From the NCBI GenBank assembly GCA_012270585.1, contig JAAXIB010000086.1, positions 1 to 33,804 on the forward strand: a DNA stretch of 33,804 bases, in the 5' to 3' direction. The stretch is from Nitrospirales bacterium. GTDB lineage: Bacteria > Nitrospirota > Nitrospiria > Nitrospirales > UBA8639. The position numbers and the translations under genes were made by a program. A model generated the notes under the pieces. It ran no database searches. It was not told the DNA's origin and saw only the letters and a list, made by a program, of their open reading frames with translations. Shown piece after piece: positions 389-4,224 of the stretch. Position 1 is the stretch's first letter. Every line of letters begins with the position of its first letter.

Positions 389-2185
389 ATGACTAAGAAG
401 AAAACGCAAGACCCGGTTCGGCCTTCGAAGCAGACGACGCTTCAACGAATTTTGACCACGACGGTCAATGGCCTGGGCATGGATGCGACCGTGGCCATCC
501 TGAACCAACCCAAAGGGCCGTTGGTGCCTCAGGTGCTCAAAGGGTTTTCCTCCCGCGAGGTTCGCGCCGTGCTCCGGACCCTTTCAGGAGGAGACGGCCT
601 GGGCAACGGTCTTCTCCTGAGTGCCGGGCAGGGAGAGGAGAATGGGGCCCTCCGGCTTCGCATGGTGACGCCCGGTTCGAAGAATCTGTTGGTGATGCTC
701 CTCCGGGACGGGAAAGTGGTCTATGGGGTGCTGGTCGTGGGGAAACAGGAGGGTCGGCAGTTTACCAAGCGTGAAAAAACCACGGTCGGCTCGGCCGCTC
801 ACCGTATCACCGAGCAATTGCGGGAAGCGAAGCTGTTCGATCATTCCGTGCTCCTGACTCGTCCCTGGGTCCTGCCGGAGCCGGCGGACGAGGAACCCGA
901 GCCGGAGGCTGTTGAAGCGACCACGCGAACCTATACCTCGCCCCGGGTCCAGGAACGAGTCGCCGAGCGCTTGACCGAGACGCAGTCTCTGTTGCCGTTC
1001 GATCGGGGCTGGGTCACGTTGTATGATCCGTTGGCCGCATCCCTGGAAGTCCTGGGCTGTGTAGCCGGGCATAAGAAAGAACTGCTGCCGGGACAACGGT
1101 TGTCGTTGAACGAATCCGCTTCGGGTTGGTCGGTGCGGCATCGCAAGCCCCGTGTCGATCAGAACCTGGCCTCCACGCAAGGGCGCTTTCATGATTACAA
1201 ACAGTTGTACCGCGATCGGTTCCGGTGCACGCTCGTGGTGCCCTTTTTCGTCAGGGGGCGCGTGGCCGGTACGCTCACCCTGGCGTCCAAGACGGCCGCC
1301 CAATATGAATCCGCGGAGGCCGAGTCCGGCAAGCTCGAACCGGTCACCACGCAATTGGCCCGGCTTTTTGACGAACCGTCCCTGAATCTCCTGTCTTCCC
1401 CGGAAGCGGCTGCCCCGCCTGCGACAGAGTCGGCGGTCTCCGGCATATCGGAGCCGGTGATCCGGCGACAGGAACGGCAATCGGCCTTGAATGAAGTCAG
1501 CTCCTTCCTCGCCACCGAGATTCGTGAGCCCATGGGCTATATTCGGGCTCAATTGGAGGAAGTGACGGGTGACGGCACCCTCGATTTCGAATCCCAGACG
1601 TCCATCGAGGTGGCCATGCGGGACCTGATGCGGATGGAAAGCCTGCTCAACGATATTCTGGATTTTGCCAAGCCCCTTGCCTTGGACCGGCGTCCTTGCC
1701 ACGTGACCGCCTTGATCGAAGATGCTCTTGCGTTGGTGGCCACGGATCTGAAAGTCAACCGGATCGAGGTCACGAAGGAGTTTCCCGCGCGTCTGGGACA
1801 AGTGCGCTGGGATAAGGAAAAGATCCAGCATGCTTTCCTAAGTATTTTTACGAATGCCCTGGAGGCGATGTCGCCGGGCGGGCATTTGCGGCTTTCCGTG
1901 TCCCCGAAACGCGGGCGCCGGCCTGAAATGGTCATCCGCATCCACAACGACGGCGCCCCGATTCCCGAAGAATTGGGCGAGAAAATTTTTGAACCCTATT
2001 TTACGACGAAACGGTCGGGGACCGGCTTGGGCTTGGCGATGGTGAAAAAAATCGTGGACGAACACGACGGGCACATCGCCATCGACAGTCGCCCGGAGGA
2101 AGGGACGCTGGTCACCATCACCTTGCCGGCCATGCGCCCCAGGCGTCCCTACCGGGGAAGAGGGCGGCCACCGAGGCGGGGATAA
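389..2185 (+). CDS. GAF-domain sensor histidine-kinase-like protein with Thr at the phosphoacceptor position
   Basis: The 598-residue protein has no membrane segment and is probably cytoplasmic. A GAF-like sensor domain covers about residues 190-335. A dimerisation region follows at about 365-440 and a HATPase_c domain at about 470-585. The ATP-binding boxes are intact: N box with N489 (TNALEAM), G1 box N520-D-G, F box FEPYFTTK and G2 box GTGLGL at 544-549. In the H box, the usual HE(I/L)RxP is read as A-T-E-I-R-E-P, so Thr376 stands where the phosphorylated His is expected. The ATPase half therefore looks functional, while autophosphorylation on the usual residue looks impossible. The C terminus is a short Arg/Pro/Gly-rich basic tail. 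No response regulator is adjacent. The ATG at 389 is the first start in frame; its ribosome site is weak. Confidence 0.85.
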   Translation: MTKKKTQDPVRPSKQTTLQRILTTTVNGLGMDATVAILNQPKGPLVPQVLKGFSSREVRAVLRTLSGGDGLGNGLLLSAGQGEENGALRLRMVTPGSKNLLVMLLRDGKVVYGVLVVGKQEGRQFTKREKTTVGSAAHRITEQLREAKLFDHSVLLTRPWVLPEPADEEPEPEAVEATTRTYTSPRVQERVAERLTETQSLLPFDRGWVTLYDPLAASLEVLGCVAGHKKELLPGQRLSLNESASGWSVRHRKPRVDQNLASTQGRFHDYKQLYRDRFRCTLVVPFFVRGRVAGTLTLASKTAAQYESAEAESGKLEPVTTQLARLFDEPSLNLLSSPEAAAPPATESAVSGISEPVIRRQERQSALNEVSSFLATEIREPMGYIRAQLEEVTGDGTLDFESQTSIEVAMRDLMRMESLLNDILDFAKPLALDRRPCHVTALIEDALALVATDLKVNRIEVTKEFPARLGQVRWDKEKIQHAFLSIFTNALEAMSPGGHLRLSVSPKRGRRPEMVIRIHNDGAPIPEELGEKIFEPYFTTKRSGTGLGLAMVKKIVDEHDGHIAIDSRPEEGTLVTITLPAMRPRRPYRGRGRPPRRG

Positions 2186-2378: not shown

Positions 2379-2735
2379 ATGAAGAGTATTCGCCTTCTTC
2401 TTATTGCGGTCGCGGGTACTGCCCTGATGGCTTCGGTGGCGTTTGCAAATCCGGGCATGCTGCCTTCACATGCCGGCTATCCTATGACCGAGACGGAATC
2501 GCCGGTTGATGGGACGCGGACAAGCCATGATGCCGGGCAAGCGAATGCCGTTGGTGCCAAAGCATCGATGGCGGCGTCTTCCACCGCCGATGCCTCTTCC
2601 ATGGAAACCGCGAGCGATCCCAACCGTGAGCGGATTAAAACCTCTCAAGGCGCCGGGCGTTTGCCGGAAGTTGAAGGGGCCTTGAACAAGGTGGATATCA
2701 ACCCGGGTGGAGCCACGTCGACCGTCATTAAGTAA
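2379..2735 (+). CDS. Small secreted protein of unknown function
   Basis: The 118-residue protein begins with a clear signal peptide: Lys/Arg near the N terminus, a hydrophobic stretch and an AFA-N cleavage site near residue 22. The mature part is rich in Ala, Ser, Gly and Thr, lacks cysteine and aromatic clusters, and looks mostly disordered. No family was recognised. The ATG at 2379 is chosen because an AAAGGAG ribosome site lies just upstream and the signal peptide begins there; the frame stays open upstream to 2277. It has its own promoter (2264-2293) and a strong terminator (2760-2794), so it is probably a single-gene transcript. Function cannot be inferred beyond export to the periplasm or outside the cell. 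Confidence 0.75.
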   Translation: MKSIRLLLIAVAGTALMASVAFANPGMLPSHAGYPMTETESPVDGTRTSHDAGQANAVGAKASMAASSTADASSMETASDPNRERIKTSQGAGRLPEVEGALNKVDINPGGATSTVIK

Positions 2736-3267: not shown

Positions 3268-3594
3268 CTACTCCGGCTGAAAGGCTTTTTCCAGGACCGG
3301 TTTCAGTTCCCCCTTCGACTGCATGGGACCGAGGACGTCGGTGTCGCCGTAGAATTGGCCGTTGATGAACACCTTGGGCAGGGTCGGCCAGTTGGTCATT
3401 TGCGTGAGGACTTCGCGTTTTTCCGGATTTTCCAACACGTTGATGATTTCGTAGGGGTATCCGAATTGATCGAAAAACTCCATCGTTTCGACGGTAAAGC
3501 CGCATTGGGGCGCGGTCTTGGTCCCTTTCCCATAAATGAGGATTTTATGTTCTTGCAATTCCCGTTGAATCTCTTCTTCGATGGGATGTGCCAT
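3268..3594 (-). CDS. grxD: Grx4-type monothiol glutaredoxin, CGFT variant
   Basis: The 108-residue protein matches the single-domain monothiol glutaredoxins that hold and transfer [2Fe-2S] clusters with glutathione and BolA partners. The KGTK motif is at 23-26, the active-site cysteine is C31 and the cis-proline segment is WPTLPK. The usual CGFS signature is C-G-F-T here, a conservative Ser-to-Thr change. The C-terminal GGxD-like motif reads YGDTDVL. It lies 14 bases behind bolA on the same strand. An AGGAGG ribosome site overlaps the bolA stop codon (TAGGAGG), so the two are probably cotranscribed and translationally linked. The likely role is iron-sulfur cluster delivery or iron sensing in the cytoplasm. 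Confidence 0.93.
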   Translation of the reverse strand: MAHPIEEEIQRELQEHKILIYGKGTKTAPQCGFTVETMEFFDQFGYPYEIINVLENPEKREVLTQMTNWPTLPKVFINGQFYGDTDVLGPMQSKGELKPVLEKAFQPE

Positions 3595-3608
3595 ACCGTG
3601 TGTCCCTC

Positions 3609-3848
3609 CTATGAGCCATCCGTTGTTTCAGCCGTCAGTTCAAGCGCATGGATGCGGCCGTCTTTCAGCGGCTCGTCCAGGGCTTGATAAATGAGACGGT
3701 GGCGATCTAATACATTTTTCCCTTTGAACAGATCCGACACCACCCGGACGTTCAAGTGATCCATGGTGCCCGTGCGGTCCGTGACGCTGACTTGGGCATC
3801 GGTCAAGACCTGCCGAACGTATTCCGTGATGGTTTGCGGGGTAATCAT
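3609..3848 (-). CDS. bolA: BolA-family protein
   Basis: The 79-residue protein carries the BolA core: a conserved F-x-G-K segment (LFKGKN), the RHR-type motif DRHRLIYQAL and the C-terminal IHALEL segment with its cluster-ligand histidine. BolA proteins form [2Fe-2S]-bridged heterodimers with monothiol glutaredoxins, and such a glutaredoxin is the next gene. The ATG at 3848 (MITPQ) is preferred. The frame extends to a GTG at 3875, but those nine extra residues do not resemble the family, and AGGGAA lies 11 bases before the ATG. The stop codon TAG forms part of the next gene's ribosome site. Confidence 0.9.
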   Translation of the reverse strand: MITPQTITEYVRQVLTDAQVSVTDRTGTMDHLNVRVVSDLFKGKNVLDRHRLIYQALDEPLKDGRIHALELTAETTDGS

Positions 3849-4224
3849 GATGTGGCGGCTTCCCTGTCGAGGCACGTTTCAGCCGAAACCCATGATACTC
3901 AAGCCCTCGCGGTTCCGCAATAACACCGGCTTTCCCAATCTGTTGTAGGCGCGCCGTTTCATGGCGCTGTGTTTTTTCTTTTGCCTTTATCTTTGTTTGT
4001 CATCCCCGACCACGATCGGGGATCCAGGGCTTTTGTTTTTCCTTCGTCCGTGAGGAGCAAGACCCTGGATTCCCGCTTTCGCGGGAATGACAGCAAGGGG
4101 GCAAGGAGGACAGATAAAACAATCGGGAGACTTTGTCTGTCAACGCATGAGTGAACATTTATAATCCCCGACCTTGATCGGGGACGAATCCAGCGTCCCT
4201 CGTCAATCTGGCCGGTCCCCTTCT
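3849..4224. repeat. Spacer with a facing pair of palindromic repeats
   Basis: No gene is seen between bolA and the esterase. 3999-4029 is a forward copy of the GTCATCC...GATCCAGGG family, with stem CATCCCCGA/ATCGGGGAT-like arms. 4063-4091 is an inverted copy, with arms ATTCCCGC-TTTC-GCGGGAAT. Together they make a facing pair of the kind seen in REP/BIME arrays. A further partial copy with arms CCCCGA/TCGGGG lies near 4164-4183. The first 110 bases hold the upstream region of bolA; no convincing promoter was found in it. Confidence 0.75.

Follow-up and report, generated by a model that had tools for sequence, protein, structure and literature searches.

A histidine kinase-like protein conserved in the order Nitrospirales lacks the phospho-acceptor histidine and probably signals by partner binding

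Introduction

To our knowledge, natural pseudo-histidine kinases that persist throughout an entire lineage are few, and the best understood of these is DivL. RetS is a kinase-like protein that acts through another kinase and holds GacS in check; unlike the protein described here, RetS is a membrane hybrid protein and retains its histidine. DivL from Caulobacter (PDB 4q20) has a HisKA-type DHp–CA core with a residue other than histidine at the phosphorylation site across orthologues, namely Tyr and, once, Ala. It is described as having neither kinase nor phosphatase activity, its CA domain as dispensable in vivo, its signal as passed on by binding, and some of its relatives as lacking the DHp–CA core (PMC4211667). 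In Corynebacterium, a pseudokinase variant of ChrS illustrates that a non-catalytic kinase can still alter signalling (PMC9491836). HisKA kinases carry the motif H-E/D-x-x-T/N, and their phosphatase activity is reported to require the N or T four residues after the histidine: in CrdS, the substitutions N375A, N375D and N375Q abolish phosphatase activity, while H371A affects it only slightly (PMC3510030).

Here we analysed the first gene of a window from the assembly of a Nitrospirales bacterium (contig JAAXIB010000086.1, the whole stretch of 33,804 nucleotides). Like DivL, its product combines a HisKA-type DHp–CA core with a non-histidine residue at the acceptor site across orthologues. Within our literature searches, no paper on this Nitrospirales protein was found by title or start of abstract.

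Results

Gene and domain layout

The open reading frame at 389-2185 on the forward strand encodes a GAF-GAF-DHp-CA protein which ends in a short Arg/Gly-rich tail. The features of the gene are as follows:

389..2185 (+): whole gene, GAF-GAF-DHp-CA pseudo-histidine kinase, 598 aa (ORF, Pfam, matches in genomes of the phylum)
416..826 (+): first GAF-like domain, residues 10-146 (secondary structure of the AlphaFold2 model; weak GAF_3 match, best stretch residues 91-140)
941..1372 (+): second GAF domain, residues 185-328 (GAF, 44 bits, best stretch 188-310; holds most of the family-wide invariant columns)
1454..1570 (+): DHp helix 1, residues 356-394 (AlphaFold2 model; low entropy)
1514..1516 (+): codon ACC, Thr376 at the phospho-His position, followed by E377, with E380 at the place of the phosphatase N/T (sequence, homologue alignment)
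1586..1669 (+): DHp helix 2, residues 400-427 (AlphaFold2 model; low entropy)
1811..2131 (+): CA (HATPase) domain, residues 475-581, N box N489 intact (HATPase_c, 81.6 bits)
1946..1960 (+): G1 box NDGAP, residues 520-524, Asn for the usual Asp (homologue alignment; ThkA, 3a0r, likewise Asn)
2021..2035 (+): G2 box TGLGL, residues 545-549, intact (sequence, homologue alignment)
2132..2182 (+): Arg/Gly/Pro-rich basic C-terminal tail, residues 582-598 (present in homologues)

Both Pfam and the model place a DHp hairpin and a HATPase domain in this protein. The HisKA profile aligns to residues 368-428 with 26.7 bits, just under the cut-off of 26.9, and is matched at E<=0.01 in 33 of 40 aligned family members; HATPase_c matches all 40 at the same threshold, including those of family f4. 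No PAS domain was among the seven Pfam families matching at E<=1, the sensory part consisting of GAF domains instead. An AlphaFold2 model built from 40 sequences (single chain, mean pLDDT 77.9, pTM 0.35) shows two GAF-like domains, the DHp hairpin (356-394 and 400-427) and the CA domain, and is to be read for the separate domains rather than for their arrangement or the dimer. Its DHp–CA part matches structures including ZraS, HK853, DivL and RetS (6dk8). By sequence, the best matches among solved structures were ThkA (3a0r), ZraS (9jfj) and sporulation kinase B (3d36), with E-values of 4.1e-25, 6.5e-25 and 3.3e-24; in these alignments, the H box of each shows H and N where the protein studied here has T and E.

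The residue at the acceptor site

The initial annotation had read Thr376 in place of the phosphorylated histidine, and this is borne out: the H box reads LATEIREPM, with Thr encoded by ACC at 1514-1516. It had also considered that another histidine within the dimerisation helix might align better as the acceptor. The histidines of the protein lie only at residues 138, 152, 228, 251, 268, 438, 481, 499, 519, 559 and 562; none falls within the predicted DHp helices, so there is no better-aligned candidate, and an alternative His acceptor was rejected. Since a change from CAY (His) to ACN (Thr) needs at least two base changes, a single wrong base cannot explain Thr376, and we rejected a sequencing error on this ground and because His is absent from all homologues read.

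Conservation was assessed in 101 distinct homologues from 133 Nitrospirales loci, after merging of proteins with the same core. A small number are truncated by contig ends, and as the set still includes close relatives, the counts are not independent. Absence of His at position 376 proved universal (0 of 101), while Thr itself is not: Thr occurs in 88 homologues, Gln in 6, Ala in 3, Ser in 2, and Gly and Met in one each. Tyr, the mark of the DivL family, was found in none of the 101. The 88 Thr codons are ACG (33), ACC (30), ACA (21) and ACT (4), and the use of all four suggests selection for Thr. The following residue, 377, is acidic throughout (E in 98, D in 3), whereas position 380, four residues after the acceptor site, is E in 91, R in 6, P in 2, D in 1 and Q in 1, and never N or T. 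The motif H-E/D-x-x-T/N is thus incomplete in the family, which mostly reads T-E-x-x-E.

For comparison with other lineages, 57 relatives were taken from the best 80 of 499 confirmed loci, from records outside Nitrospirales/Nitrospirota (one labelled just "bacterium"). Three of them do not reach the column of position 376; all 54 that do read H-E-x-x-N. Likewise, all nine other HisKA-matching kinases of the window's genome keep His. One of these reads HDLQEP, with E at +4, and as it keeps its His, Glu at +4 alone is no mark of a pseudokinase. In f4 genomes, kinase-like proteins at L205 1780-3405 (-) and L211 1255-2898 (-) have the H box AHALKDP, in which His is present and Ala replaces the kinase-type acidic residue, possibly representing another degenerate kinase.

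ATP-binding boxes and constraint along the protein

The N, G1, F and G2 boxes had all been annotated as intact. For N (N489), F and G2 this holds in the present protein; G1 reads NDGAP and departs from the usual motif, D-x-G-x-G. Its first position is N in 98 and R in 3 of the 101 homologues. ThkA, an ordinary kinase, also has an Asn-type G1 box in the structure–sequence alignment, so Asn alone is no proof of lost ATP binding. N489, K541 and G546 are kept in 98, 98 and 97 of 101 homologues, respectively, and the N, F and G2 boxes are retained outside family f4. In the three f4 members, G1, F and G2 are all missing, yet at least two of these proteins retain the GAF2 signature; in one f4 member, HATPase_c matches with 24 bits to the last part of the profile.

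Mean entropy, computed over those 91 homologues that carry T or A at position 376, was lowest in the regions of DHp helix 1 (358-393, 0.52 bits) and helix 2 (403-428, 0.45 bits), making the DHp helices the least variable part by region means. Values rose through the CA domain (471-581, 0.87 bits), GAF2 (1.07) and the DHp–CA linker (1.18) to the first GAF region (1.51-1.81), the tail (1.57) and the two inter-domain linkers (1.99-2.15). The most conserved single stretch of 20 residues in these homologues is 534-553 in the F/G2 region, a pattern that favours nucleotide binding in the majority of lineages. The 40-sequence alignment, which includes f2 and f4, has 34 invariant columns, and 20 of them are found in GAF2 between residues 235 and 295. 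From these sequence patterns, we read the family as one in which sensing is kept everywhere, ATP binding in most lineages and own phosphate chemistry nowhere.

The tail shares a constant character: at least five Arg/Lys residues are present in all 100 homologues that reach that far (one of the 101 is cut off by a contig end), with a median of 8 basic and 0 acidic residues. By eye, no Arg/Gly-rich tail was seen in the last 25 residues of the genome's nine other kinases.

Distribution and phylogeny

Of 395 sampled Nitrospirota genomes, 141 matched the gene at E<=1e-40, without exception members of the order Nitrospirales. Among the genomes listed, which leave out 234 non-matching ones, those of the same order without a match are G153 (98% complete) and G368. 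At E<=0.001, which lets other kinases through as well, all 59 relatives match. A search with GAF2 only separated the listed orthologues (6e-25 or better) from the next listed matches (4.5e-11 or weaker), and the close named records are assigned to Nitrospira, Nitrospiraceae, Nitrospirales, Nitrospirae or Nitrospirota.

A tree of 89 DHp–CA sequences, comprising 27 chosen from the 101 homologues, 54 of the 57 outside relatives and eight of the window genome's nine other kinases, placed the family on one side of a branch with support 99/96, recovered in 98% of 200 bootstrap trees; the tree carries a long-branch warning and the family's place among kinases is unsure. As the family forms one clade, the simplest account is a single loss of its histidine that predates the diversification of the order.

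The gene also persists in small genomes: five that measure 1.7-2.0 Mb and have 9-12 HATPase matches retain it, as do three f4 genomes in which HisKA matches number 2-3. None of the listed matches has an internal stop. In genome G269 (C12:195274-197063) the match falls in two pieces, and genome G409 has two matches (C3 and C32), one at a contig edge.

Genomic neighbourhood

Among 51 neighbourhoods, many of them shortened by contig ends, none contained a second kinase gene and 50 contained no receiver-domain gene; the single exception has receiver-domain genes 6.6 and 7.7 kb away. The genes recurring upstream, whose families were assigned from one locus, include functions of isoprenoid and carotenoid synthesis: a polyprenyl synthetase is encoded in 29 of the 51, an NAD-dependent epimerase in 26, and a carotenoid-synthesis protein and a holin-like membrane protein in 24 each. 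An operon partner was rejected, as 50 of these 51 neighbourhoods show no regulator gene and the recurring upstream genes name no partner; a cognate response regulator may lie elsewhere in the genome. When a partner was sought through retention in small genomes, one kinase, which we take to be NtrY-like, was common to the window's genome, G207 and the three f4 genomes; as a candidate partner it is a lead only.

The next gene downstream is

2379..2735 (+): small exported-looking protein with the motif ANPxLLxxHxGYP (no Pfam family up to E 1)

This motif was found within 1.2 kb downstream in 35 of the 50 neighbourhoods with enough sequence and in three families of the order. One of the 35 is in f2, and the motif is missing at all three f4 loci and at three f2 loci. 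The small protein is encoded by a linked gene; any role of it in the pseudokinase system is putative.

A promoter and terminator scan gave counts no higher than in shuffled sequences. A stem-loop of 15 pairs follows the small downstream gene at 2757-2789. By eye, a near-identical palindromic repeat flanks the kinase-like gene (about 88-116 and 2931-2959), with related copies to about 3190, and farther along the window (3268-3875, reverse strand) glutaredoxin and BolA genes are adjacent.

Discussion

Our comparison indicates, as judged from sequence and by analogy to DivL, that the Nitrospirales protein is probably an ancient orphan among pseudo-histidine kinases, one that performs no phosphate chemistry itself and signals by partner binding. 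A kinase fold whose acceptor is lost, with the loss kept across orthologues, places it by its sequence in the pseudo-histidine kinase class, and this state most simply appears to have been fixed before the order Nitrospirales diversified. Supporting observations are the lack of a His acceptor and of the phosphatase N/T in the homologues read, the loss of G1, F and G2 in f4, the single clade, the wide retention and the conserved DHp helices. Counting against it are the retention of an acidic residue at 377 and of N489, K541 and G546, which a dead enzyme need not keep, and the peak of conservation in the F/G2 region. In the proposed mechanism, the second GAF domain would be the main sensor of a ligand or state, sensing would change the DHp helix bundle of the dimer, and this bundle would bind a partner, either a response regulator or another kinase, instead of moving phosphate. 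ATP binding by the CA domain, where kept, may serve as a conformational aid and not as fuel, having been lost in family f4. The lack of activity, the dimer, ligand sensing by GAF2 and signalling by binding are all features that we infer.

DivL is the nearest described parallel, and the two proteins match in sequence (E 1.5e-15) as well as in fold. They differ in that DivL has Tyr or Ala at the site, PAS sensors and an alphaproteobacterial distribution, whereas members of the present family carry Thr, Gln, Ala, Ser, Gly or Met there, together with two GAF domains. Orthology to DivL is disfavoured, as ordinary kinases match better than DivL does, and the two probably arose separately; DivL is not among the 89 sequences of the tree. 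The ChrS variant differs in another way, being a lab-evolved frameshift in the CA domain and not a natural, order-wide loss of the acceptor (PMC9491836).

Ranked next after signalling through a binding adaptor, though unlikely, is a half-kinase whose active CA domain phosphorylates the histidine of a partner kinase in a heterodimer, or which restrains a partner as RetS does with GacS. The retention of E/D377, N489, K541 and G546 in 97-101 of the 101 homologues, the conserved DHp helices and the RetS kinase region among the structure matches of the model would fit such a role, and native ChrS–HrrS heterodimers have been reported, yet the truncated ChrS pseudokinase itself is described as forming no significant heterodimer (PMC9491836). 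Moreover, no second kinase gene is present in any of the 51 neighbourhoods, many of them shortened, the G1 Asp is replaced by Asn in 98 of 101 homologues, and f4 kept the gene but lost the ATP site. This last point also weighs against a threonine autokinase with Thr376 as new phosphoacceptor, which we regard as very improbable: Thr in 88 of 101 homologues from all four codons and the kept E377 would agree with it, but Gln (6), Ala (3) and Met (1), none of which can accept phosphate in this manner, also occupy the site, as does Gly (1). Equally improbable is a dedicated response-regulator phosphatase. The initial annotation had offered phosphatase action as one option, and CrdS H371A, which lacks the histidine, keeps most phosphatase activity (PMC3510030). 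The +4 residue required for it, however, is one of E, R, P, D and Q in each of the 101 homologues, and the CrdS substitutions N375A, D and Q abolish the activity (PMC3510030); we therefore disfavour this option. The annotation's other two options, ATP sensing and pairing with another kinase, may still apply: the N, F and G2 boxes are retained outside f4, and in 50 of 51 neighbourhoods no regulator gene is nearby.

A decaying pseudogene or a sequencing error is the least credible explanation. The lost catalytic boxes of f4 and the divided match in G269 could be taken as signs of decay, but no listed match contains a stop, four Thr codons are in use and the gene is retained in reduced genomes, so that the order-wide sequence data already speak against it. 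The basic tail raises one further alternative, which we consider doubtful: the kinase scaffold may have become a non-phosphorylating regulator with the Arg/Gly-rich tail as its output, in which the GAF2 ligand and ATP in the CA domain would set the binding of the tail to nucleic acid or an acidic partner. If true, the protein would be an order-specific regulator outside two-component signalling.

As a probable pseudo-histidine kinase signalling by binding, the Nitrospirales protein would provide a case in another phylum than that of DivL, with a stepwise decay in which the acceptor is gone in all homologues read and the ATP site in one family. Such stepwise decay would make it possible to study what a kinase must retain for phosphate-free signalling. 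The protein is also a probable core regulator of a bacterial group to which the nitrite-oxidising Nitrospira belong.
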